DNA from: Micromonospora polyrhachis
GTDB lineage: Bacteria; Actinomycetota; Actinomycetes; Mycobacteriales; Micromonosporaceae
Assembly: GCF_014203835.1 (NCBI RefSeq)
Contig: NZ_JACHJW010000001.1
Coordinates: 5,158,501 to 5,222,500 of the forward strand
Direction: 5' to 3'
DNA: 64,000 nt
Part shown: piece by piece, positions 46,970 to 60,305 of the stretch
Position numbering within the stretch: position 1 is the stretch's first letter
How the letters are laid out: each line of letters opens with the position of its first letter
Position numbers and translations under genes: made by a program
The notes under the pieces: generated by a model
Told to the model about the DNA's origin: nothing
What the model saw: only the letters and a program-made list of their open reading frames with translations
Databases searched by the model: none

Positions 46970-48109
46970 ATGGCGGGTGCCGCTGGGCCGACGATCGGGG
47001 TGCTCGGGTCGTACGGGGGACGGAACCTCGGCGACGAGGCGATCCTGACCGGGCTCCTGGCCGATCTGCGGGCCCGCCGGCCGGACGCCCAACTGCTGGT
47101 CTTCTCCCGTAACCCGGAGCACACCCGGGTCGCGCATCCCGGCGTACGGGTCGCGCCGTGGGACGGGGTGAGCCGTACCGACTCGGCGGAGGTCCTGGCC
47201 GGGCTGGACCTGCTGATCCTCGGCGGTGGCGGAATCCTCTACGACAGTGAGGCCCGCCGGTACCTCCGGCTGGTCCTGGCCGCCCAGGAGCGCGGGTTGC
47301 CGGTCCTGACGTACGCGGTGGGAGTCGGGCCGCTGACCGAGCCGGTGGACTGTTCGATGGTCCAGGCCGCGTTGACCGCCGCGATCGAGGTGACCGTCCG
47401 GGACGAGGAGTCCCGCCTGGTGCTGGAGGAGTCCGGGGTCACTCGACCGGTCACCGTCACCGCCGACCCGGCGCTGCTGCTGGAGCCGGAGGAGTTTGGC
47501 GTGTCGCTGCTGCGGGAGGAGGGCATCCCGCCGGGCAGTCGTCTGGTCGGCATCAGCGTCCGAGAGCCGGGCCGGGCGGCCGAACACCTCGACGTCGGTG
47601 GGTATCACCGGCTGCTCGCGCAGGTCGGTGACTTCCTGGTGAACCGGCTCGACGCCAGTGTGCTGTTCGTTCCGATGGAACGTGACGACATCCGGCACGC
47701 GCACGGCGTGTTGTCGCACATGACCGCAGCCGAACGGGGACGCATCCTGCACGGTGCCTATCGGCCCCGGCAACTGCTGGGGCTCATGCCGCACTTCGAC
47801 ATGGTGGTCGGGATGCGACTGCACTTCCTGATCTTCGCGGCGCTCTCCGGAATCCCGTTCCTGCCGTTGCCGTACGCGGGGAAGGTCTTCGACTTCGCGC
47901 AGCGGATCGGGATGCCGGCGCTGCGCGGCGTGGAGCGGGAGGTGGAGGGCCCGCTGCTGGCGGAGGTCGACCGGCTCTGGGACGAGCGGGATTCCCGGGT
48001 CTCGGACATCCGTCGCCGGGTGGTGTCGCTGCGCGAGCGGGCCGCGAACACCGGCCAGATCATCGACCCGCTGCTGCGGAACCTCACCGCCGGTGGTAGC
48101 CCCGGTTGA
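46970..48109 (+). CDS. Polysaccharide pyruvyl transferase (CsaB-like)
   Basis: This encodes 379 residues from the ATG at 46970 after a run of G residues. It opens with GVLGSYGGRNLGDEAILTGLLADLRARRPDA and continues with DLLILGGGGILYDSEARRYL and YAVGVGPL, the N-terminal Rossmann-like motifs of pyruvyl transferases. HFDMVVGMRLHFLIFAALSGIPFLPLPYAGKV is the C-terminal donor-binding block (conserved R-x-H). The enzyme transfers pyruvate from phosphoenolpyruvate to a wall glycan, as CsaB does for S-layer anchoring. No partner glycan genes are adjacent. Confidence 0.88.
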   Translation: MAGAAGPTIGVLGSYGGRNLGDEAILTGLLADLRARRPDAQLLVFSRNPEHTRVAHPGVRVAPWDGVSRTDSAEVLAGLDLLILGGGGILYDSEARRYLRLVLAAQERGLPVLTYAVGVGPLTEPVDCSMVQAALTAAIEVTVRDEESRLVLEESGVTRPVTVTADPALLLEPEEFGVSLLREEGIPPGSRLVGISVREPGRAAEHLDVGGYHRLLAQVGDFLVNRLDASVLFVPMERDDIRHAHGVLSHMTAAERGRILHGAYRPRQLLGLMPHFDMVVGMRLHFLIFAALSGIPFLPLPYAGKVFDFAQRIGMPALRGVEREVEGPLLAEVDRLWDERDSRVSDIRRRVVSLRERAANTGQIIDPLLRNLTAGGSPG

Positions 48110-48130
48110 GTAACCCCGGTTGGCCGGGAC

Positions 48131-48215
48131 CGACGGATCCTGACCGGGACCGGCCTGACGGATTCTGACCCGGACCGCCTGACGGATCCTGACCGGGACC
48201 GCCCGACGGATCAGA
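48131..48215. repeat. About 24-bp tandem repeat, 3.5 copies
   Basis: Imperfect repeats of GACGGATCCTGACCGGGACC with short spacers, between the pyruvyl transferase stop and the end of the next minus-strand gene. The last partial copy reaches its stop codon. Confidence 0.75.
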
Positions 48216-48417
48216 CCGCCGGTCCTCGGAATTCGTACTGCCAGGGCGGGTCGCCGCCGTCCGTTGTCTCCAGTTCGTAGATCTCGCTGTCGGTGAGTCC
48301 ACCGGCCCCGACGTGGTGGTGGGTGAGGGGCGGACGGCCGTTCGGGTCCAGCTCGACGGTGACCGTCTCGCCGTCGGCGGCCCCGCCGACCAGGGGAATC
48401 TCCGCGCTGGGTGCCAT
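48211..48417 (-). CDS. Small protein of unknown function (68 aa)
   Basis: This encodes 68 residues from the ATG at 48417 with GATGAGG just upstream. The sequence (AEIPLVGGAADGETVTVELDPNGRPPLTHHH... then EIYELETTDGGDPPWQYEFRGPAV) is acidic with three adjacent His residues. It looks like a small beta-rich protein resembling short phage- or plasmid-borne proteins, but I cannot name a family. It is divergent from the zincin/vWA/AAA cluster with 115 bp between starts. Confidence 0.55.
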   Translation of the reverse strand: MAPSAEIPLVGGAADGETVTVELDPNGRPPLTHHHVGAGGLTDSEIYELETTDGGDPPWQYEFRGPAV

Positions 48418-48532
48418 CACCTCATCCTGCCTCTGCGTTGGCGGCGGCGCAGGCGATCGCGCTGTGCCCACTCGTGTCGCCCGGCACTGGTAAGAAGGGC
48501 GCTGTCCAAATTTCGGCTCGTGGGGAGAAGCA

Positions 48533-51127
48533 ATGGACTTGAGCGGCTTGGTTCCTCGGTCGTCGGGTTCGACTCCCACGACCCGGGCCGTCGGGAGACT
48601 GCTGGCTGCCGCTGGTGCCGACGACCAGCGGGCGGTCGTCGTCCGGGTGGGTCGGCCATTGGGAGCGGTGTTACGTGAGCACCCGAAGCTGCCCGTTGAC
48701 CTGGTCGAGACGGTGCTGCGCGGCGACGACCGGGACCTGTTGCAGGCGCTGTACGACAACCCCGACCGGGACGGCGTCCACCGCGACCACTGGGATCGGT
48801 GGTCAGCCGCCGACCGGCCGGTGGTCGCCCGGCTCTGGTACGACCATGCCGACCTCACGCAGCGCCGTCGGATCCTGGCGGCGGCCGACCCGGGAACCCC
48901 GGGATGGACCCAGCGTTCCGGCCTGGTGGCGCAACTGCTCACGTCATCCGACATCGAACAGTTGCGGCCGGCCGTGGTGGGTCGATTTCCGGATCTGATC
49001 GAGCATGTGCTGCGGACCTGTCATGTCGGGCTGAGCCGGGCCGATCAGCTCCGTGCCGTCGGTTCGCTAGTCGACTGCGGCGTACTCGGGGTAGCGCTGA
49101 GCTGGCTGGGGACACTCGAACTGCACCCTGACGTGGTCGAGTTGGCTCGGGCGGCCGCCACTTCCACCGTAGGGGCGGACCGGTTGCGGGGTCTGGTCAC
49201 CGCGACCTCGGACCTGGTCCAGGACACCGGCGACCTGGTCGAGGAGTTGCGTCAGCTCCCCGGCAAGTTGTCGCACCACGAAACCAGGAAACAGGCGGAA
49301 CAGAAGGTGGGTCGACGCAACCGGTGGGACTGGGAGAGTCTGCGGGCGGCGCACGCGCTCCGACCGTTCCCGCCCGACTGCCTGGAGTTGCTGGTGACGC
49401 ACCGAGACTGCCCGGCGGACCTTGCCGTGCAGTGGTGTGCCGCCCTGCCCCGGGGGCTGGACGTGCTGCTCCAGGCGAAACATCCGATCCCGTCGCCGCC
49501 GCCGTCCCCACTGCTGCGGACCCTGCTGTCCGCGACGACCCTGACCAGGCTGATCGTCGAACGACTCGGATCGGGGCTGACCGGCCCCGATCTGCTGACC
49601 GAGTGCCAACCGGCGCGCACCGTGCTCCAGGTGGCGCACGGGCGGCGGGGCCGCTACTCCGACGAGCGGAAACAGGCCGAGTGGGACGCGTTCCGGGCGG
49701 GGCTCAGGGAACTGGTGGTGACCCGGCTCGGCCACGATGTCGAGGCGTGGCGGCTGCTGCGTACCCGGCTGCCGAGATTCAACGGCACGGTCACCCGGTT
49801 GCTCGACGAGGTGGCCGCGTCGATGGCCAAGCCAGCACGTCGGCCGGACCGGGTCGCCGCCGGCCCGGCAGTCGACTGGCCGGACGCCGCCCCGCTGGAG
49901 ATGTTCTTCGAGCCGCCATCGTTGCAGGTCAACCGGGCCGCGTTCGTGACCCTGCTCGACGCCGCCACCACCGACACCCAGTGGCACCTGCTGCCACACC
50001 TCGACGAGCGGACCCGGTACGACCTACTCGCCCTAGGGGAGTGGCGGGACGAGTGGGTCACCCGTGTGGTGGCCGACGGTGAGCTGCGGATCAGTGTGCC
50101 GTTGGCCCGCCGGCCGGCCCTGCCGGTCGAGGCGATCGAGGCACTGGCCGCGCTGGATGATCCCGCCACCAACTTCGGGCTGCTCTACCAGCCACAGGCG
50201 ACGGCACGGCAGCGACATCGACTGGTCAACGGGATCCCGTTCGGCCCGGCCCGGACCGAACCGCTGACCGTTAACCTGGACCCAGACCTGGACAAGGTCA
50301 TCGCTGAGGGGCCGGGGCGGGAATACCTGCTTCCGTTGCAGTACCACGACGACCCCGGGGTCGCGCAGGAGTGCGTGCGCAGAACCGGTCTGCCGCAGAA
50401 CCGGATGCTGCGGTTGATCATCGACTGGTGGGAGTTGGACGGGCACCCGAACCGCATCCTGGAACGCCTGCCGGCCAGCATCCAGGTGGGGGTACGCAAA
50501 CTGGTCACCGAGCTGGTCGACGCCCCGGACGCCGACGAGGCGCTGGACCGGCTGCGTGCTGCCGCGTACGAGGCGGAGTCACCGAAGCAGGCGGTACGCC
50601 GGATGCGTGGTGGTACCGCCCCCCGCACACTGCGAGCCGAGGGCTTCCGCTGGGACTGGGACTTCCTGGTCGAGGCGCATCGGGAAAAGCCCTTCGAGCC
50701 CTACATCCTGCACTTGCTCCGGGCGCTGCCCGGCTGCCCGGAGTTGCTGCGTGACGCGGCGTTGCGGGCCGGCTCGGATGCCACAGCACCGGTCCTGACC
50801 ACGGCTGAGCAGCGCGCACACAAGGCACTGGCCGGCGGGAAGACGCCCGCCGACGTGCTCGCGAAGCGGCCGGTCGCCGCTTGGGTGGAGCACGTCGTCC
50901 AGTGCGGTGACCTTCTCCCGGTGGACGTGCTCCGGTCCGGTCACCCGGCACGGGAGGCATTGTCGATCGACCGGGTCGACGACACGTTCCGTACGGAATT
51001 GGCAGCGCTTGTCGACAAGCACCTGGCCGGTCGGCCGGATGCCTGGCAGCTCGTGTTGGCCATGTTGCCCGACTTCGCCGGTACGGTGCCGGAATTGCTC
51101 AGCACCGCCGCACTGGCCGCCGAGTGA
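48533..51127 (+). CDS. 864-aa duplicated helical protein of a MoxR/vWA cluster
   Basis: I do not recognise a named domain. ATG 48533 follows GGGGAG. The protein is a tandem duplication: RWDWESLRAAHALRPFPP (264-281) recurs as RWDWDFLVEAHREKPFEP (706-723), both followed by a Cys-Pro; DVEAWRLLRTRLPRFNGTV (402-420) recurs as DAWQLVLAMLPDFAGTV (836-852); HPKLPVDLVETVLRGDD...LY..P (50-77) recurs as RPALPVEAIEALAALDD...LY..P (527-554). The last block resembles variant leucine-rich (LRV) repeats. No signal peptide or membrane helix. It lies 10 bp upstream of the zincin/vWA gene and 1.6 kb upstream of the AAA gene, so it should be a dedicated partner, perhaps a scaffold or recognition subunit. Confidence 0.8.
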   Translation: MDLSGLVPRSSGSTPTTRAVGRLLAAAGADDQRAVVVRVGRPLGAVLREHPKLPVDLVETVLRGDDRDLLQALYDNPDRDGVHRDHWDRWSAADRPVVARLWYDHADLTQRRRILAAADPGTPGWTQRSGLVAQLLTSSDIEQLRPAVVGRFPDLIEHVLRTCHVGLSRADQLRAVGSLVDCGVLGVALSWLGTLELHPDVVELARAAATSTVGADRLRGLVTATSDLVQDTGDLVEELRQLPGKLSHHETRKQAEQKVGRRNRWDWESLRAAHALRPFPPDCLELLVTHRDCPADLAVQWCAALPRGLDVLLQAKHPIPSPPPSPLLRTLLSATTLTRLIVERLGSGLTGPDLLTECQPARTVLQVAHGRRGRYSDERKQAEWDAFRAGLRELVVTRLGHDVEAWRLLRTRLPRFNGTVTRLLDEVAASMAKPARRPDRVAAGPAVDWPDAAPLEMFFEPPSLQVNRAAFVTLLDAATTDTQWHLLPHLDERTRYDLLALGEWRDEWVTRVVADGELRISVPLARRPALPVEAIEALAALDDPATNFGLLYQPQATARQRHRLVNGIPFGPARTEPLTVNLDPDLDKVIAEGPGREYLLPLQYHDDPGVAQECVRRTGLPQNRMLRLIIDWWELDGHPNRILERLPASIQVGVRKLVTELVDAPDADEALDRLRAAAYEAESPKQAVRRMRGGTAPRTLRAEGFRWDWDFLVEAHREKPFEPYILHLLRALPGCPELLRDAALRAGSDATAPVLTTAEQRAHKALAGGKTPADVLAKRPVAAWVEHVVQCGDLLPVDVLRSGHPAREALSIDRVDDTFRTELAALVDKHLAGRPDAWQLVLAMLPDFAGTVPELLSTAALAAE

Positions 51128-51137
51128 GGACGACAGC

Positions 51138-52595
51138 ATGGCGGAGGTAGCGACCGGTACGACGATGGCCGAGCGGCGGGCCAGCGTCGACCTCACCGAC
51201 CGGCGAGCCCTGTTGGCGTGCCAGCCGGACGACCCGGCGGTGCTGGCCGAGGCGCACCGGTTGAAGGAGACGGCGCTGTTGGACTTCGGGGTCCGCGACA
51301 GTGTGGTGACCTCGTGGCTCTATGCCAAGTGCCACCACCACATCCCGACCACGGCAGTGGAGACGGCGGCGGTCGTCGCCACCGGGGACGGCGGCTGTCT
51401 GCTGCTCTACAACCCGCAGTTCTTCGTGGACATCGGGCTGGCCGGGGTGCGGTTCGTGCTGTTCCACGAGGCCCGCCACCTGATGCACCGCCACCTCTAC
51501 GTGGAGCCGGAGCTGCGCGCCGATCCGGTGTTCCACCTGGCCGCCGAGGTGAGCATCAACCACGTGGCGATGGTCCGGTTGGCGTCCGGCGGGCTGCCGA
51601 CCCGCGCCGTGCCGGACGGCACCGGCGGCACGGTTCGCGAGCCGGTCGGGGTGGACCCACACGAGATCCACCGACGGTACGCCGAGGACCTGAGCGGTCA
51701 GGGCCGCAAGCCACTGTCGTACCAGGATTTCGTCGACACCGACCTGGTCGTCTACCGCGAGTTGAAGCGGATGCACACCCCGCTGGTGCTGCCGATCGGG
51801 CTGTGTATCCACGCCGACCACGTCGGAGGAGACATTGGCGAACTTCCCACCGATGGCGAGACGGTGGGCCGGATCGTCGGTGAGGTGTTGGCCGAGGCGA
51901 TCCGGGCCGCGCTGCGGGGCAACCGGATCGCCCGCGACGAGGTGCTGAACCTGGTCGACCGGTCCGAGGGTGGCGGTGACCGGCTGACCCGGATGTGGGG
52001 CACCCTCGGGGCCGTCGCCCTGCGGGGCGAGACGCCTCGGACCCGGCGGGTCCAGTGGTGGAAACGCTGGCTGGCGGACACCCTCGCGTCCAAGCTGCGC
52101 GAGGGGGAACGGCTGGTCTATCCGAAGAAACAGGGGGCGGTGTTGCTCGCCCTCGGTCACGACCCGATGCTGTCGCGACGCGGTCGGGAACGTACGAAGG
52201 TGGTGTTGGTCGCCCTGGACACCTCCGGTTCGATGTCGAACGAGGTGGTCGACTGGATCACCAGCCTGGTCGGCCAGACCGACGGGGTGGAGAGCCACTG
52301 GCTCAGTTTCGACGGGGTGGTGATGCCGTTCGTGCCCGGCGAACGGGTGTACGGCGGGGGCGGCACCAACTTCCAGAACGTGGTCGACTACGCCGAGGGG
52401 CGGCTGACCATCGACGGTGAGCCGTTCGAGGTGCAACCGGACGCGGTGATCATGGTTACCGATGGCTACGCGCCACGGGTCTCCCCAGCCCAGCCGGATC
52501 GGTGGATCTGGCTGATCACGGACGGCGGCGACGACTGGCCGGAGCACCACAATCCGCCGATGGCCTGCCATCGGGTAATCACCGGCGAGCGGTGA
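51138..52595 (+). CDS. DUF2201-type zincin-like metallopeptidase with vWA domain
   Basis: This encodes 485 residues from the ATG at 51138. The N-terminal part has the zinc-protease motif HEARH (110-114) in VRFVLFHEARHLMHRHLYVEP, with Glu137 (LAAEVSINH) placed as a possible third ligand. YAKCHHHIPT at 62-71 is characteristic of DUF2201. The C-terminal vWA domain has a complete MIDAS: DTSGS (361-365), Thr410 (GGGGTNF) and Asp442 (VTDGY). The combination suggests a metal-dependent protein-binding module tied to a protease-like domain. Such proteins work with MoxR-type AAA ATPases, one of which is encoded just downstream. Confidence 0.88.
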   Translation: MAEVATGTTMAERRASVDLTDRRALLACQPDDPAVLAEAHRLKETALLDFGVRDSVVTSWLYAKCHHHIPTTAVETAAVVATGDGGCLLLYNPQFFVDIGLAGVRFVLFHEARHLMHRHLYVEPELRADPVFHLAAEVSINHVAMVRLASGGLPTRAVPDGTGGTVREPVGVDPHEIHRRYAEDLSGQGRKPLSYQDFVDTDLVVYRELKRMHTPLVLPIGLCIHADHVGGDIGELPTDGETVGRIVGEVLAEAIRAALRGNRIARDEVLNLVDRSEGGGDRLTRMWGTLGAVALRGETPRTRRVQWWKRWLADTLASKLREGERLVYPKKQGAVLLALGHDPMLSRRGRERTKVVLVALDTSGSMSNEVVDWITSLVGQTDGVESHWLSFDGVVMPFVPGERVYGGGGTNFQNVVDYAEGRLTIDGEPFEVQPDAVIMVTDGYAPRVSPAQPDRWIWLITDGGDDWPEHHNPPMACHRVITGER

Positions 52596-52687
52596 CCCGG
52601 CCCGATCCGGGACAACGGCCCGGCCCGATCCAGGACAACGACCCGGCCCGATCCGAGACAACGGCCCAGCCCGATCCAGGACAACGA
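52596..52687. repeat. 23-bp minisatellite, 4 copies
   Basis: Four head-to-tail 23-bp units (52596-52618, 52619-52641, 52642-52664, 52665-52687) with the pattern CCCGGCCCGATCC(A/G)(G/A)GACAACG. The array begins at the base after the stop of the zincin/vWA gene and fills nearly the whole gap to the AAA gene. Confidence 0.9.
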
Positions 52688-52709
52688 GCACGAGGAGAAC
52701 AGCGTCAGC

Positions 52710-54626
52710 GTGAGCATTGCGGCACCCGTTCAGCAGAACCCGCTCGGCGACCCGCAGAAGGGCGCTCGTCGGCCCTGGCGGTCGAACGCGACATATCCGA
52801 AGCGACCGCCGGGGGCGGAGACCGGGGTACGCCTGGAGCAGTTCATCGACGCGATGATCGCGATGGGGCAGACTGGTCAGGTCTTCGGGGAGCACGGCAT
52901 CGGCAAGACCTCGACGTTCCTGTCGTACATCCCGGAGCGATTCCCCGGCACCCGGGTGATCCTGGTGCCGGCGGCCAACCTGACCCCGGACGACCTGCTG
53001 GTCAACGCGCCGGTCCGGGATCCTCGTACCGGCGAGCTGGCGCTCACCCAGCTGATCATGCGACAGCTCGCTCCCGGTGAACCGTTCGTGCTGCTGATCG
53101 ACGACTCGTTGCAGGCCGGCGACACCATCCAGTCGCAGCTCATGCAGGTCGCCTGCGACTGGACTCTCGGCGAACACGACCTGCGCGAACTCGGCTGCGT
53201 CGGCGTCTTCCTCACCGACAACGAGTCGCTGGTCGAGACCAGCGCCCGGCGTAGCGACCTGGCTGTCCTGGACCGGATGGTCACCGTACGGCTCACCGCC
53301 AACGACACCGGCTGGCGATTCAAGCTCGCCGAGCGCTACCGCGACTGGGACCTGACCGAGGTGTACCGGATCTGGGCTGCCCTGGTGCCGGAGTTGCGGC
53401 AGTTGCTGTCGCCCCGCACGCTGCAGCACGTACTGGACTGTGCCCGGGCCGGGCTTCCGCTGGCCTGGGGCCTGCCACTGGTCAACGGGCATCGGCTGCG
53501 CCTGGTCGAACCGGGTGACCCGGGCGACGGCGACCGCAAGAAGGAGAGCCGCAAGGACCGGGACCGCACCGACGAGACGCTGGACCGGATCGCCGCCGCG
53601 ATCGGCTGCGCCAACCCGGACACCGTCCCCGACCCGGTCCGGCGCATCCTGCGTACGGCCATCCGGGAACGCTGGGCGGTGCTGCTCCAGGGCCCGCCCG
53701 GCTGCGGCAAGACGGAGATCACCAAGCAGGTGGCCCGGGAGGAGACCGGCCGTGCGCCGGTCTACTTCTCGCTTCCGGTCACCAACGTCGAGGACCTGTG
53801 TGTGCCGGTGCTCACCCCGGACGGCACCCTGGACACGCTGCTCACCCGGTCGCTGCTCGGCCCGGAGCCGAAGGTGCTGGTCTGGGACGAGTACAACCGC
53901 CCCAAGGACAAGTCGACCTTCGCCAAGCTGATGGAGGTCACCCAGGAGTGGTCGCTGGCCGGTCGGCCGATCCCCAACCTGCGGGCCCAGGTGGCGTTGC
54001 AGAACCCGCCCTACCACCTCGGGCGCAAGCTGTTGGTGTCCCGTAACAACGTGGCCCAGGCGAGCCGGTTCACGGTCAGCTACGAGGTACGCCCCGAGGA
54101 CATTCCGGCCAACGAGTGGCTGATCGCGACGTACGGCGAGATCGCGGAGACGATGCTGGAGTGGTGGAAGACCGACATCGACGACGAGGGGCGGGACTGG
54201 ATCACCAAGCGCACCCTGGAACGGCTCATCAAACTGCACCGGGCTGGCCAGCCGTTGCAGTCCGGGCTGATCTATCTCGGTGACGGCGAGTACGCCCCGG
54301 TGCCGTTGACCAAGCTGGAGGCGCGACTGACCGAGCAGCGGGTCATCGGGCTGCGGGAGATCGCCCGGGACGTGGACGGCTGGGTGGCGCGACTCGCCGC
54401 CGCCTCCGAGACCTCCACCGAGGGGACCGACGACACCGACGCCGTACACCAGGTGTTTTCCAACGCCGAGGTGTCCCAGCTGAAGCGGCACCTGAACGTG
54501 GTGGCCCGGCTGCTACGGCACCTGCCGCCGAAGCTGCGCGCCACCTACCTGGTCGGGCAGACCCCGGAGAAGCAGAAGTTCTGGGTCACCGCCCTGGCCC
54601 GGATGGCGGAGCTTTCCCGCGACTGA
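52710..54626 (+). CDS. Tandem MoxR-like AAA ATPase
   Basis: This 638-residue protein has two AAA modules. Module 1: Walker A GEHGIGKT (60-67), Walker B FVLLIDD (126-132), sensor-like LTDN (168-171). Module 2: Walker A GPPGCGKT (328-335), Walker B VLVWDE (389-394) followed by the MoxR-like NRPKDKSTFAKLMEVTQEW, and sensor QNPP (431-434). A charged linker (270-290) joins them. The GTG at 52710 is the annotated start, with GAGGAG 12 bases upstream, longer than ideal. MoxR ATPases remodel protein complexes and act with vWA partners, so this should be the motor of the three-gene module. Confidence 0.9.
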   Translation: MSIAAPVQQNPLGDPQKGARRPWRSNATYPKRPPGAETGVRLEQFIDAMIAMGQTGQVFGEHGIGKTSTFLSYIPERFPGTRVILVPAANLTPDDLLVNAPVRDPRTGELALTQLIMRQLAPGEPFVLLIDDSLQAGDTIQSQLMQVACDWTLGEHDLRELGCVGVFLTDNESLVETSARRSDLAVLDRMVTVRLTANDTGWRFKLAERYRDWDLTEVYRIWAALVPELRQLLSPRTLQHVLDCARAGLPLAWGLPLVNGHRLRLVEPGDPGDGDRKKESRKDRDRTDETLDRIAAAIGCANPDTVPDPVRRILRTAIRERWAVLLQGPPGCGKTEITKQVAREETGRAPVYFSLPVTNVEDLCVPVLTPDGTLDTLLTRSLLGPEPKVLVWDEYNRPKDKSTFAKLMEVTQEWSLAGRPIPNLRAQVALQNPPYHLGRKLLVSRNNVAQASRFTVSYEVRPEDIPANEWLIATYGEIAETMLEWWKTDIDDEGRDWITKRTLERLIKLHRAGQPLQSGLIYLGDGEYAPVPLTKLEARLTEQRVIGLREIARDVDGWVARLAAASETSTEGTDDTDAVHQVFSNAEVSQLKRHLNVVARLLRHLPPKLRATYLVGQTPEKQKFWVTALARMAELSRD

Positions 54627-54741
54627 CCCGCCGGTACCGGGCCGCGTCCGCCAGGCGCCGGAGCGGCCGAACGCGGCCCGCCACCGGGTCCGCCGTATCG
54701 GGGCGAGGTTTCTCCCGGTCGAATCGGGGAACCGCGCGACC

Positions 54742-56364
54742 GTGGAGGACCTGGTCTGCGATGCCCGCGAACACGGACTCGCCGGCGACGGGTCGACCAA
54801 CGACCAGCCGGCGCTGGCGGCGTTGGTCGACCGGCTCGGTGCGGCCTACGCCGCCGACGGACGCCCACGCGTCATCCACTGCCCGGCGGGGGTCTATTCG
54901 ATCCGGGACGCGGGCACGGTCTGGCGCAGCGGAGTCTCCCTGACCGGGGCCGGTCCGGGGGTGACCCGGTTCGTCCTGTCGAACCCGGGTGCTCCCACCA
55001 ACCCGACCCCCCTGGCCTTCTTCACCACGGTCCAGCACGGTGCGGGGCGGGACAACCACATCGCCGACTGCACCTTCGCCGGCTTCGAAATCGACGGCTC
55101 GGGCGTGACGCTGCCCGGCTACGACGTGCTCGCCAAGGGGCTGGGCCTCCAGTACGTGCTGCGGGGCCGGTTCCGGGACCTCTACATCCACGACACCGGT
55201 GCGACCGGTCTGGGCTGCGACTTCCTCCAGGACACCGTGGTCGAGGGCGTGCTGGTGGTGCGCTGCGGCCGAATGGACAACGGGGACCAGATGGGTGGGG
55301 CCGGTATCGGCATCGGAGTGGGCGGTTGGGGTGCCACCGAACGACTCACCATCACCGCCTGCACCGCGATCGGCAACGGCACCAACGGGATCTTCCTGGA
55401 ACTCCAGAAGGACTACTGGACACCGCCGGGCGGTATCCGGATCGTCGGCTGCCACGCCGAGGGCAACACGTACGGGATCTCCGACTGGGGCACGGACGGA
55501 CTGATCGTTTCCGCCTGCACCATCACCGGCAACCTCGAAGCCGGGTACGACGTCTCGGCGCACGGCACCGCCGGGGTCGCCGGCCGGGGTGGCATCGTGA
55601 CCGGCTGCGTCATCGACGGGAACGTCCGCGACGGCGTCAGCATCGGCAACACGCCCGGCCCTTACACCGTGCGTGGCAACCGGATCAGCCGCAACGGTCG
55701 GTACGGCTATCGCGAGCACGATCTGGCCGGGGACGGTCAGCCGGCCGGCGGCATCGTCGTGGACAGCAACGAGATCTGGGACAACGGGCTGGACGGGGTA
55801 CGCGTCGACGCCACCCTCGTCGATGCCTTCATCACCGGCAACCGGATTCGTGACAACGGCCGCCGGAGCGCGCCTGCCGTTCTCGGTGCGGGCGGCGACC
55901 CGGTCAGCTACACCCGGGCAGCCCTCGTGGATCGGAGCGCGAACTGGCCACCGGACGGCCACCGGGGCAAGACGCTGACGGTCGGCGACCGGACGGTGAT
56001 CGTTACCGGCAACACGCACACCGAACTCACCCTTGCCCCGACCCGCCCCGGGGCGACGACGGCGTGGCAGGGCCCACCACCGGCACCGGGAAGCACCTAC
56101 CGGTTGCCGGACGCCCCGCCCGTACGGGCCGGGATCACCCTGGCCACCGCCACGACCGAACTGACGATCCGGGACAACCGGATCTGGGACGACCAGGAGG
56201 ACAGGACCCAGACGTACGGACTGTGGGTCACCCGGGACGGCAGTTGCGTTTCCGGCACGGTCGAGGGCAACGACCTGCGCAACAATGCCATCTCGGCCAC
56301 CCGGCTCGACGCCGCGCCGACCGGGGGGCGGTGGAACCGCAACCACGGCCTCGACGACCGGTGA
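54742..56364 (+). CDS. Right-handed beta-helix (pectate-lyase-like) protein
   Basis: This encodes 540 residues from the GTG at 54742. It opens CDAREHGLAGDGSTNDQPALAALVDRLGAAY, the usual start of pectate-lyase superfamily and phage tailspike proteins (D-x-x-x-x-G-A-x-x-D-G-x-x-N/D-D). Many parallel beta-helix (PbH1) rungs follow: GIRIVGCHAEGNTYGIS, GLIVSACTITGN, GGIVTGCVIDGNVRDGVSIG, YTVRGNRISRNGRYGY, IVVDSNEIWDNGLDGVRV and FITGNRIRDNG. A C-terminal insertion (about 375-460) carries a separate small domain. No signal peptide is visible, unusual for a polysaccharide lyase. Catalytic residues cannot be assigned. It lies 115 bp after the AAA gene on the same strand. Confidence 0.8.
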   Translation: MEDLVCDAREHGLAGDGSTNDQPALAALVDRLGAAYAADGRPRVIHCPAGVYSIRDAGTVWRSGVSLTGAGPGVTRFVLSNPGAPTNPTPLAFFTTVQHGAGRDNHIADCTFAGFEIDGSGVTLPGYDVLAKGLGLQYVLRGRFRDLYIHDTGATGLGCDFLQDTVVEGVLVVRCGRMDNGDQMGGAGIGIGVGGWGATERLTITACTAIGNGTNGIFLELQKDYWTPPGGIRIVGCHAEGNTYGISDWGTDGLIVSACTITGNLEAGYDVSAHGTAGVAGRGGIVTGCVIDGNVRDGVSIGNTPGPYTVRGNRISRNGRYGYREHDLAGDGQPAGGIVVDSNEIWDNGLDGVRVDATLVDAFITGNRIRDNGRRSAPAVLGAGGDPVSYTRAALVDRSANWPPDGHRGKTLTVGDRTVIVTGNTHTELTLAPTRPGATTAWQGPPPAPGSTYRLPDAPPVRAGITLATATTELTIRDNRIWDDQEDRTQTYGLWVTRDGSCVSGTVEGNDLRNNAISATRLDAAPTGGRWNRNHGLDDR

Positions 56365-57007
56365 CGAGTCCTCACCGCAGCCGTACCCGGACCGGGCGGA
56401 CCTGCCCGATCTGGGCGTCAACGGATTCGCGGTGGCCTCCCTGATACTCGGCATCATCGGCGGATTGGTACTCAGCGTCGTCTTCGGCATCGTGGCGCTG
56501 GTGCAGATCCGCCGCCGGCCGTACCGGGGCAGGGGACTGGCGATCGGTGGCCTGGCCGCCTCGGCATCCTGGGTGCTGCTCTTCGTGCTGTTCGTGGCGG
56601 CCATTGTCATGGACGATGCCGATCGGGACGCCGACGGTCAGGTCACCAACGGCGCAACGGTGAGCACCGAGCAACTTCGGCCAGGCGACTGCGTCAATGA
56701 TCTGAACGAGAACGACTACATGGTTAGCGACTTGCCGGCCGTATCCTGTGCCGAGCCGCATGAGGGCGAGGTCTACGCCGTAGTCCCGTTGCCGGAGGGG
56801 GACTGGCCGGGTAAACGTGAGGTCGCCCGGCAGGCGGAACAGAGCTGCTATGTCCTGCTCACCCGCTACGCCACGGCCGTCGACCCCAATCTGCTGGACG
56901 TCTTCTACCTCGCTCCCATGGAGCGGGGCTGGATGCGAGGAGATCGCGACATCGTCTGCATCGCCATCGACCCGAGCGGAAAACGGACCGGCTCGATCGG
57001 GGGTTGA
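56285..57007 (+). CDS. DUF4190-like membrane protein with septum-formation-type domain
   Basis: This encodes 240 residues if the ATG at 56285 is used; it then overlaps the previous gene by 80 bp, and no later in-frame start precedes the membrane region. Two transmembrane helices (GFAVASLILGIIGGLVLSVVFGIVALVQI, then GLAIGGLAASASWVLLFVLFVAAIVM) match DUF4190. The extracytoplasmic C-terminus (LRPGDCVNDLNENDYMVSDLPAVSCAEPHEGEVYAVVPLPEGDWPGKREVARQAEQSCYVLLTRYATA) has the paired Cys and CAEPHEGEV of the septum-formation (PF13845-like) domain. Function unknown. The start is the least certain part. Confidence 0.75.
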   Translation: MPSRPPGSTPRRPGGGGTATTASTTGDESSPQPYPDRADLPDLGVNGFAVASLILGIIGGLVLSVVFGIVALVQIRRRPYRGRGLAIGGLAASASWVLLFVLFVAAIVMDDADRDADGQVTNGATVSTEQLRPGDCVNDLNENDYMVSDLPAVSCAEPHEGEVYAVVPLPEGDWPGKREVARQAEQSCYVLLTRYATAVDPNLLDVFYLAPMERGWMRGDRDIVCIAIDPSGKRTGSIGG

Positions 57008-57032
57008 CGAGGAAGCCGGCCGCACAGGTGTT

Positions 57033-57081
57033 AGAAAGGGACCCTTCCTCTGCAAAAAATCGATAAGAAGGGGCCCTTTCT
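57033..57081 (+). terminator. GGGCCC-type hairpin before the SNF2 gene
   Basis: AGAAAGGGACCCTTCCT (57033-57049) pairs with AAGAAGGGGCCCTTTCT (57065-57081), 15 of 17 pairs, over a 15-base A-rich loop. It is 26 bp past the DUF4190 stop and likely terminates it. The 3' arm (AAGAAGGGG) also stands where the Shine-Dalgarno of the SNF2 gene would be. Confidence 0.75.
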
Positions 57082-57086
57082 TGCGC

Positions 57087-60000
57087 GTGGTGCATGGGGT
57101 GTGGCGGAGCGGTGGGCGGCTCGCGCTCTGGGGCGAGGACTCCGCGTTGCCAGCTCGGCCACCGCGTCGCCCCGGCCGACCACCCCGGGAACGCCCACAC
57201 CCCTTCGCGGCCGACCACGAGGCGCTGGCCGGCCTGCTCGGTGACGCGGCCGTCAAGGCGACGACCGGCAGCGTCGTACTCACGTTGCCCACCCGCAGCG
57301 GAACCCCCGCAGACTCGCCGGAGCTGGTGCGGGCCGAGCCGTCCGGTCCGGCTCGCGGGCCGGTCACCCTGGCCGGCTGGCGGGTGCCCACCATCGAGTA
57401 CGACGCCGACGACGCGCTGCCCGTCCTGCGGGCGCTCGGCGTCGACGGTCCGGTCTGCGGGGCGGGCCTGCACCAGCTTGTCGAGCTGGCCGAGTTCGCC
57501 GTCGACCTGGTGTGTCGGGGCCGGACCCTGCCCGGCGTGGCGGTGGACGGCCCGACCCGGAAACCTCGGGCGATCTGGCGGCCACTGCTGACCGCCGCCG
57601 ATGCCACCTGGGCCCGCGCCCTGGCCATGGCGCTGCCGCCAGCCGTCCGGGCCGCCGTGCCGGAGTTGTCGACCGGGGCGCTGGTCGCCGACGTCCTGGA
57701 CTCCCTCACCGATGCCGCTGCCCGAGCCACCCTCGACGGCGTACGTCTGGTCGACAGCCGCCGGTCCAGCGGCACGGATGCCGCCGTCCGGGCCTGGCTG
57801 CGGGCCCTGACCGGCCGGCAGCGCAGTTTCACCGCCCCGGCCGGGGCGGTGGCCGCCCTCGTCGACGAGCTGCACACCTGGCAGCGCGACGCGGCGGGCA
57901 GCCCGGTCCGGGCCTGTTTCCGGCTGGTCGAACCGATTCCGAAAGAAGTCGAGTTCGACCTGGACACGGAAGAGTCGGACACGGAAGAGTCGGACACGGA
58001 AGAGTCGGACACGGAAGAGTCGGACACGGAAGCGCCGGACATCGCAGCGGCAGATCCGGACGTAGAGCCGGATGCGGAAGTCGAGTTCGCGGCGGATCAG
58101 GGGACCGAACTGGCGACATCCGACGGTTGGCGGGTGGAGTTCGCGTTGCAGGCGGCCGACGAGCCGAGCCTGATCGTCGGGGCGGACCGGGTCTGGGAGT
58201 CGCGCGGGGCACTCCAGGCGCTGGCCCGGCACCTCGACACACCGCAGGAGACGCTACTCGCCGAGTTGGGCCGGGCCAGCCGACTCTGGCCGGAGCTGGA
58301 GACCGCGCTGCGTACCGCCACACCTGACGGGTTGGACCTGGACACCGAGGGGGCGCACCGGTTCCTGCGGGACGGCGCACCCGTGCTGCACGCGGCCGGG
58401 TTCGGGGTGTTGTTGCCGTCGTGGTGGCAGCGGCCCAACGCGCGCCTGGGTGCCCGACTACAGGCGCAGTCGCGGACCGCCCCGGGCACGGTGGCGTCGC
58501 GTAGCGCGCTCGGCCTGGACGCCCTGGTGGAATACCGGTGGGAACTGGCGCTGGGCGACCAGCCGCTGTCCGAGTCGGAACTGCGGACCCTGGCCAACCT
58601 CAAGACCCCACTGGTACGGCTGCGCGGCCGGTGGGTCGAGCTGGACGCCAAGCGTCTGGCGGCCGGGCTCAAGCTGCTGCGTACCGCCGGAGAGATGACG
58701 GTCGGGGAACTGCTGCGCCTCGGCCTGACCGCCCAGGACGATCCGGAGGCGTTGCCGGTGCTGTCGGTCAGCGCGGACGGGGCGCTCGGTGATCTGCTCA
58801 CCGGCCAGGTCGACCGGCAGCTCGCCCCGGTCGATCCGCCGGCCAGCTTCCAGGGCACGCTGCGGCCGTACCAGCAGCGCGGACTGGCCTGGCTGACGTT
58901 TCTGGAGTCGCTCGGTCTCGGTGGCGTTCTCGCCGACGACATGGGGCTGGGCAAGACGGTGCAGTTACTCGCCTTGCTGGCCGGCGGCTCGGCCGGCAGC
59001 GAGCAGACCACTGGGCCGACCCTGCTGGTCTGCCCGATGTCGCTGGTCGGCAACTGGCAGCGGGAGGCGGCCCGGTTCACGCCGGAGCTGCGCGTACACG
59101 TGCATCACGGTGCCGACCGGGCCCGGGGCGAGGAGTTCACGGCGGCGGTCGACGCGGCCGACCTGGTCGTCACCACCTACTCGGTTGCGGCCCGGGACGC
59201 TGGCGCACTTGCCGAGGTCGACTGGCACCGGGTGGTGGTCGACGAGGCGCAGGCGATCAAGAACGCCGCGACCCGACAGGCCACCGCAATCCGGTCACTG
59301 CCCGCCCGGCACCGGGTGGCGGTCACCGGTACGCCGGTGGAGAACCGACTGGCCGACCTGTGGTCGATCATGGAGTTCGCCAACCCGGGGCTGCTCGGGT
59401 CGGCGGCGGCGTTCAAGAAGCGGTACGCCGAGCCGATCGAACGTCACGGCGACGACGACGCGGCGCAGCGGTTGCGTCGGTTCACCGGCCCGTTCGTGCT
59501 GCGCCGGATGAAGACCGATAAGTCGATCATCTCGGACCTGCCGGAGAAGCTGGAGATGGAGGTGCTCTGCAACCTCACCGGCGAGCAGGCATCGCTCTAC
59601 CAGGCAGTGGTGGACGACATGCTCCACCGGATCGAGTCCAGCGAGGGCATCGAGCGGCGGGGACTGGTGCTGGCCACCATGACCAAGCTCAAACAGGTCT
59701 GCAACCATCCGGCCCAGTTGCTGCGGGACGGCTCGGTGCTGCCGGGGCGGTCCGGCAAGCTGGCCCGGCTGGAGGAGGTCCTCGACGAGGTACTGGCGGC
59801 GGGGGAGAAGGCCCTGATCTTCACCCAGTACGCCGAGTTCGGCAACATGCTGCGCGCCCACCTCTCCGCCCGGTTCGGCCACCAGGTGCTCAACGGGCGC
59901 GAGGTGCTCTACCTGCACGGCGGGGTCGGCAAGGCGGAACGGGATGCGATGGTGGAACGCTTCCAGCAGGGGGCCGCACCGCTGTTCGTACTGTCGCTCA

Positions 60001-60305
60001 AGGCCGGCGGCAGCGGGTTGACGTTGACCGCTGCCAACCATGTGGTGCACGTGGACCGGTGGTGGAATCCGGCGGTGGAGGACCAGGCCACCGACCGGGC
60101 GTTCCGGATCGGTCAGCGGCGCGCGGTGCAGGTACGCAAGTTCGTCTGTGCCGGCACGGTGGAGGAGAAGATCTCCGCGATGATCGCTGAGAAGCGCGGG
60201 CTCGCCGCGAAGATCGTCGGCACCGGTGAGCAGTGGCTCACCGAACTGTCCACCACCGAGTTGCGGCAGTTGTTCGCGCTGGAGGCCGGGGCGGTGGTGG
60301 AGTGA
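57087..60305 (+). CDS. SNF2-family helicase-like ATPase
   Basis: This encodes 1072 residues from the GTG at 57087 (VVHGVWRSGGRLALWGED; TTG 57081 and GTG 57090 are alternatives). The N-terminal half is the actinobacterial SNF2 accessory region (SWI2/SNF2_N after about residue 590, DUF3670-like before). Motif I is DDMGLGKT (617-624), motif II DEAQ (VVVDEAQAIKN), motif III VTGTPVENRL, motif V GSGLTLTAANHVVHVDRWWNP and motif VI QATDRAFRIGQRR. It translocates on duplex DNA rather than unwinding it. Residues 293-317 are (DTEES)x4-DTEAP from a 15-bp DNA repeat, in an acidic linker. The SWIM-protein gene overlaps its stop by 4 bases. Confidence 0.93.
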   Translation: MVHGVWRSGGRLALWGEDSALPARPPRRPGRPPRERPHPFAADHEALAGLLGDAAVKATTGSVVLTLPTRSGTPADSPELVRAEPSGPARGPVTLAGWRVPTIEYDADDALPVLRALGVDGPVCGAGLHQLVELAEFAVDLVCRGRTLPGVAVDGPTRKPRAIWRPLLTAADATWARALAMALPPAVRAAVPELSTGALVADVLDSLTDAAARATLDGVRLVDSRRSSGTDAAVRAWLRALTGRQRSFTAPAGAVAALVDELHTWQRDAAGSPVRACFRLVEPIPKEVEFDLDTEESDTEESDTEESDTEESDTEAPDIAAADPDVEPDAEVEFAADQGTELATSDGWRVEFALQAADEPSLIVGADRVWESRGALQALARHLDTPQETLLAELGRASRLWPELETALRTATPDGLDLDTEGAHRFLRDGAPVLHAAGFGVLLPSWWQRPNARLGARLQAQSRTAPGTVASRSALGLDALVEYRWELALGDQPLSESELRTLANLKTPLVRLRGRWVELDAKRLAAGLKLLRTAGEMTVGELLRLGLTAQDDPEALPVLSVSADGALGDLLTGQVDRQLAPVDPPASFQGTLRPYQQRGLAWLTFLESLGLGGVLADDMGLGKTVQLLALLAGGSAGSEQTTGPTLLVCPMSLVGNWQREAARFTPELRVHVHHGADRARGEEFTAAVDAADLVVTTYSVAARDAGALAEVDWHRVVVDEAQAIKNAATRQATAIRSLPARHRVAVTGTPVENRLADLWSIMEFANPGLLGSAAAFKKRYAEPIERHGDDDAAQRLRRFTGPFVLRRMKTDKSIISDLPEKLEMEVLCNLTGEQASLYQAVVDDMLHRIESSEGIERRGLVLATMTKLKQVCNHPAQLLRDGSVLPGRSGKLARLEEVLDEVLAAGEKALIFTQYAEFGNMLRAHLSARFGHQVLNGREVLYLHGGVGKAERDAMVERFQQGAAPLFVLSLKAGGSGLTLTAANHVVHVDRWWNPAVEDQATDRAFRIGQRRAVQVRKFVCAGTVEEKISAMIAEKRGLAAKIVGTGEQWLTELSTTELRQLFALEAGAVVE
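57963..58037. repeat. 15-bp tandem repeat inside SNF2 gene
   Basis: Four exact copies of GACACGGAAGAGTCG (57963-58022) plus a variant fifth (58023-58037). They encode Asp-Thr-Glu-Glu-Ser repeats. Confidence 0.92.

Follow-up and report, generated by a model that had tools for sequence, protein, structure and literature searches.

What do three adjacent genes in the genome of Micromonospora polyrhachis do, and do they act together? Within the window, the stretch of 64,000 nucleotides that was analyzed, genes A (48533-51127, 864 aa), B (51138-52595, 485 aa) and C (52710-54626, 638 aa) all lie on the plus strand, with 10 nt between A and B and 114 nt between B and C. Gene A encodes a duplicated, fast-evolving protein predicted to be an alpha-solenoid, gene B a probable DUF2201-type zincin and vWA protein, and gene C a protein with two AAA modules. 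Pairs of MoxR and vWA proteins have known roles as chaperones, and they also serve as switches in predicted conflict systems. The coordinates, frames and motifs of the three co-directional genes were as an earlier, sequence-only reading of this DNA had given them. For gene B, a longer open frame starts upstream at 50907, and the ATG at 51138 is the start that matches the alignment with relatives. The gap between B and C contains four copies of a 23-bp direct repeat (52594-52685, plus strand). The GC content was not distinctive (69.5% versus 69.4%).

The extent of the locus was examined by comparison with related genomes. In G020 and G001, both relatives, a beta-helix gene and an SNF2 gene come after the upstream pyruvyl-transferase gene, with no A-B-C. 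Window segments 46982-48431 and 54774-55862 lie about 75 bp apart in G001 (locus L170), as determined by blastn, and 6.3 kb apart in the window. The insertion relative to this empty site (48432-54773) carries exactly three genes, A, B and C. The beta-helix gene (54742-56364) and the SNF2 helicase gene (56817-60305) were considered as module members and rejected, as both are backbone genes that adjoin the upstream neighbor in the relatives. The SNF2 helicase contains DUF3670 and is nearest to the SCO1167/SCO6262 family, with a score below the NCBIfam cut-off for SCO1167; its PADLOC matches to Zorya and Dpd were set aside as generic helicase similarity. A short open frame of about 68 aa (48211-48418, minus strand), just upstream of the insertion point, is conserved in relatives and also belongs to the backbone.

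Gene B was detected in 2 of 61 relatives and, with scores above marginal, in 6 of 395 genomes of the class, indicating that B is not a housekeeping gene. The possibility that B and C are ubiquitous housekeeping genes, against which the sequence-only reading had asked to be checked, was thus not the case. A scan of 84,980 species genomes yielded 80 loci with B, all actinobacterial by title. In a tree of B and C, the window grouped with Goodfellowiella and Streptomyces, apart from Micromonospora, Virgisporangium and Plantactinospora. The simplest reading of the patchy presence of A-B-C in these sequences would be gain by transfer; the alternative is loss of A-B-C in many relatives.

The linkage of the three genes was then analyzed across these loci. 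C was found at all but four of the 80 B loci; in those four, the contig runs out within about 630 bp past B. Wherever the contig was long enough, C followed B on the same strand, often overlapping or abutting it; C was beside B in 73 of 77 cases and 3.0-6.6 kb away, with A in between, in the other four. Of the 64 loci flanked by more than 4 kb on both sides of B-C, 50 had an A-family gene beside B-C, comprising A alone (18 loci), A with LRR and SDR genes (24 loci) and A with an SDR gene (8 loci). Eight further loci carried a protein of about 640 aa resembling an oxygenase, together with a TIGR02996/LRR protein, instead of A, and the remaining loci had an SDR gene alone (2) or no partner (4). 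A lay upstream, downstream, opposite or between B and C, and its linkage extended over both deep clades of the B-C tree. At the genome level, 5 of the 6 class genomes that have B also had A, versus 9 of the 389 that lack B (Fisher p 1.5e-7), and several of the A-family genes in those nine genomes stood in isolation. Two of the loci without B, L151 and L154 (compare L113), retained A and the SDR gene with both B and C gone, a joint absence in keeping with a paired action of B and C.

These data bear on the possibility that B-C is a stand-alone pair and A an unrelated, fast-evolving neighbor. The nine sampled genomes that have A without B, and the 6 of 64 loci that lack both A and the oxygenase pair, are consistent with it, but the linkage of A in 50 of 64 loci, in both deep clades and in varied positions, and its genome-level co-occurrence with B make this explanation highly improbable. 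Taken together, the empty site in a relative, the linkage in the neighborhood survey and the co-occurrence supported the earlier assertion that the three genes form one module, and answered its reservation that A might rarely accompany B and C.

Gene C encodes two AAA modules, the first with Walker A GEHGIGKT (residues 60-67) and Walker B LLIDD (residues 128-132; 52887-53105, plus strand) and the second with Walker A GPPGCGKT (residues 328-335) and Walker B VWDE (residues 391-394; 53691-53891, plus strand). The second module matched AAA_5 in Pfam (35.0 bits, cut-off 22), and the two modules were mutually homologous (hhalign probability 94, E 1.2e-7). Conservation was judged from alignments of 81 B and 77 C sequences that included the window's own proteins; the Walker motifs of C were kept in all but one to three of the 77 rows, some of the exceptions being truncated sequences. 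The description of C as a two-module AAA ATPase with both Walker pairs intact was therefore confirmed.

B had been read as a DUF2201-type protein; its DUF2201_N match lay exactly at threshold (23.2 bits, Pfam cut-off 23.2), and its vWA domain was backed by fold. PF09967 (DUF2201) was not reported for B in the Pfam scan, and the VWA_CoxE match was below the cut-off. The second half of B was recognized as vWA by fold (Z up to 10.9; model pLDDT 74.6); vWA-domain matches took up the structure-search list, so that a zincin fold for the N-terminal part of B was not confirmed there, and a NorQD chain was among the Foldseek matches to the vWA domain. The HEARH zinc-binding motif (residues 110-114; 51465-51479, plus strand) and the complete MIDAS, consisting of DTSGS (residues 361-365), T410 and D442 (52218-52463, plus strand), were both intact, as had been claimed. 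In the predicted model, HEARH sits within a long helix. A candidate third ligand region, E137...N141 H142 (51546-51563, plus strand), was invariant in the 81 sequences, as were H110, E111, H114, E137, H142, D361, S363, S365, T410 and D442 individually (81 of 81). Searches of A and B by sequence against solved structures gave matches at chance level only, and the searched literature on DUF2201, judged by title, offered nothing relevant to A-B-C.

The halves of A aligned end to end (residues 12-440, 48566-49852, versus residues 455-864, 49895-51124, both on the plus strand; hhalign probability 99.9, E 2.1e-37), indicating that A is a duplication of one unit of about 430 aa, as the sequence-only reading had proposed. 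Its further statement that the 864-aa protein has no nameable domain held in scans of Pfam, NCBIfam and PADLOC, which gave no family match for A and only two weak Pfam rows far under the cut-offs; full Pfam scans of 29 A homologues likewise gave scattered weak rows and no family. An AlphaFold2 model built from an alignment with 30 relatives was all-helical (mean pLDDT 87.6), supporting the earlier suggestion of a large helical-repeat protein that might be a recognition subunit. In structure searches, the best Foldseek E value was 5e-3 and Z was at most 6.3, to the PP2A scaffold and other HEAT/ARM proteins, and no enzyme-like match appeared. As such general HEAT/ARM likeness is common for helical repeats, a specific named fold was dropped and A is described only as a predicted alpha-solenoid of helical repeats.

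Comparison across loci revealed a pronounced variability of A. Its length ranged from about 280 aa to more than 1,000 aa, although the longest open frames may be over-extended, and a locus had zero to four copies, which could lie on either strand and to either side of B-C. In Phytomonospora, three A genes stand in tandem upstream of B-C, and other A genes are unlinked. The A proteins of about 290 aa in Streptomyces loci match mostly units of A's second kind (residues 455-864). At 60-65% identity of B, the median identity was 69% for C and 29% for the best A pair. A thus appears from these comparisons to be the variable, fast-changing part, with B and C conserved; either an arms race or client drift could account for its divergence. 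Streptomyces-like genomes (L145, L146, L147 and L150) also carry unlinked A-family members, about 1,200 aa long, whose C-terminus differs.

One short region of A was retained in spite of this variability. The C-terminal signature LPDFAGTVPELLSTA... (51065-51124, plus strand) is kept in B-C-linked A proteins, with the pattern FxG[T/S/N]xxELxxT a few residues before the C-terminus in 59 of 79 linked A proteins, some of the misses being over-extended frames. Among unlinked A proteins, the pattern was present in 4 of 6 from genomes with B and 0 of 9 from genomes without B (p 0.011, for a small sample and ignoring kinship among the orphan A proteins). This conserved tail is the likeliest predicted docking point on B-C, although the evidence is suggestive only.

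The explanation that we favor, with about even confidence, is that A-B-C is an accessory, horizontally spread remodeling machine of the MoxR/vWA type, with C as motor, B as coupler and A as target-binding solenoid. In MoxR/vWA pairs, peptide capture is the task of the vWA domain, and the AAA ring remodels the protein so bound (PMC9976466; PMC7159879). By this model, A would bind the target and bring it to B-C, a receptor role to which its helical repeat prediction, linkage, rapid divergence, copy-number variation and replacement by repeat proteins all point. The vWA domain of B, whose MIDAS is intact, would hold on to the client or to A through a peptide or an acidic residue, and the putative zincin domain of B, with an intact and invariant HEARH site, may cut the client. 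C, with its two intact AAA modules in one chain, would be the ATP motor that pulls or reshapes the target, presumably as a ring. We infer that the three proteins form one physical complex. Because relatives exchange A for other parts, A probably determines which target the motor works on.

The exchange of A was most evident in the oxygenase-bearing loci. A and the oxygenase pair never occurred in one locus among the 64 (p 6.8e-7, phylogeny ignored), and in the tree of B and C the clade with the oxygenase is nested next to a locus that has A, so that A looks ancestral and then replaced; replacement in one clade means one event or few, and the p value overstates the independent evidence. The protein that takes the place of A was identified at L049:13317-16351, with equivalents in L052, L054, L055, L057, L058, L061, L065 and L105. 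It had no Pfam match, and its invariant HxD...H...R positions, read by eye, resemble those of 2-oxoglutarate/Fe(II) oxygenases. An alternative is that the module is a maturation chaperone for metal insertion or enzyme activation, as in NorQ/NorD and CoxD/CoxE, with the SDR-like and oxygenase-like proteins as clients and A or LRR proteins as scaffolds. Known MoxR/vWA pairs act in this way (PMC9976466; PMC7159879), an SDR-like gene is present in 34 of 64 loci and an oxygenase-like gene, with the invariant HxD, H and R positions, in 8 of 64. However, in 18 of 64 loci, among them that in the window, A is the sole partner and no SDR-like or oxygenase-like enzyme lies within reach, and a single dedicated client would leave the tandem divergent A copies unexplained; we regard this explanation as distinctly unlikely.

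A second MoxR-DUF2201 system was found in the same genome, 1.7 Mb away (L157:1206-7861; G000:C1:6877205-6883860), with genes in the order SDR, LRR, ankyrin protein, single-AAA MoxR and full DUF2201 protein (110 bits). As in A-B-C, a protein with HExxH and MIDAS adjoins an AAA protein, and, as in the Streptomyces A-B-C loci, LRR and SDR partners are present; in contrast to A-B-C, the AAA module is single, the DUF2201 score is full and an ankyrin protein stands in A's place. The SDR and LRR proteins matched models from Streptomyces A-B-C loci (E 4.7e-153 and 8.6e-63), so that an SDR-LRR pair accompanies two kinds of MoxR-zincin-vWA core. Judged from these gene rows, A-B-C appears to be one branch of a broader arrangement of motor, zincin-vWA protein and repeat-protein partner. 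A wider proposal, which we advance tentatively as possible but doubtful, is that of an actinobacterial family of AAA/metallopeptidase machines whose conserved core takes interchangeable solenoid receptors that diversify rapidly, namely the duplicated helical A, LRR, TIGR02996-LRR or ankyrin proteins, along with optional oxidoreductases. Such a family would parallel, in bacteria, recognition machines that swap their receptors, and the recognized protein might undergo regulated proteolysis. The partner can be compared across about 80 genomes. Client recognition by such machines thereby becomes directly testable, down to the target-binding part, possible cleavage of the target and the effect of a receptor swap on target choice.

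The sequence-only reading had also proposed a role in defense or quality control. As a conflict system against phages or competitors, A would sense an invader molecule and B-C would set a threshold or release an effector. Consistent with this are the patchy presence, the horizontal origin implied by the window's B-C grouping with Pseudonocardiaceae and Streptomyces instead of its own family, the fast evolution and multiple copies of A, the near confinement of B loci to filamentous actinobacteria and the parallel to published ternary systems (PMC7159879). On the other hand, searches of phage, plasmid and viral collections gave no B, and the module contains no recognizable effector domain. Among known anti-phage systems (PADLOC 2023), A and B were unmatched and C gave weak generic AAA matches only; the VMAP-C and bpMoxR models were also unmatched. 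The neighbors of A-B-C loci were mostly metabolic and housekeeping-like, and among up to five neighbors at each of 18 loci (80 proteins, no background control) the PADLOC matches were few and confined to generic kinase, AAA and HerA models. Since B is missing from the mobile-element collections and its neighbors are mostly metabolic, the defense role was not supported and is ranked below general recognition and remodeling; we consider it unlikely.

Finally, we compared A-B-C with characterized and predicted MoxR-vWA systems. The general traits of a MoxR/vWA couple, a Walker-bearing AAA protein and a linked vWA protein with MIDAS, are both present. NorQ/NorD differs from A-B-C in having a single AAA module and a known client and is not known to have a zincin domain or a solenoid partner gene family. 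It resembles A-B-C in joining a motor to a vWA coupling protein, and serves as a cofactor-insertion chaperone (PMC9976466). Four ternary MoxR-vWA conflict systems, the VMAP, iSTAND, FtsH and beta-propeller types, have been described (Kaur et al. 2020, PMC7159879). VMAP-C (PF20028) was absent from A and 29 homologues in full Pfam scans, and a VMAP-C search of the window's own genome missed the locus. C reached 11.3 bits for bpMoxR (PF20030; cut-off 27). With respect to an iSTAND- or FtsH-type third component, A and its homologues had no P-loop family match in Pfam and the model of A is all-helical; A also gave no propeller match. By these tests A-B-C falls outside the four ternary systems, to which the sequence-only reading had likened it. 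Like those systems (PMC7159879), A-B-C combines an AAA protein, a vWA protein and a variable third part with a helical or repeat scaffold, and is enriched in filamentous bacteria. Unlike them, it has another solenoid as third component, a vWA protein with an intact zincin domain, a double AAA protein and no effector domains; the A-B-C core adds a metallopeptidase-like domain and a double motor to the MoxR-vWA theme.
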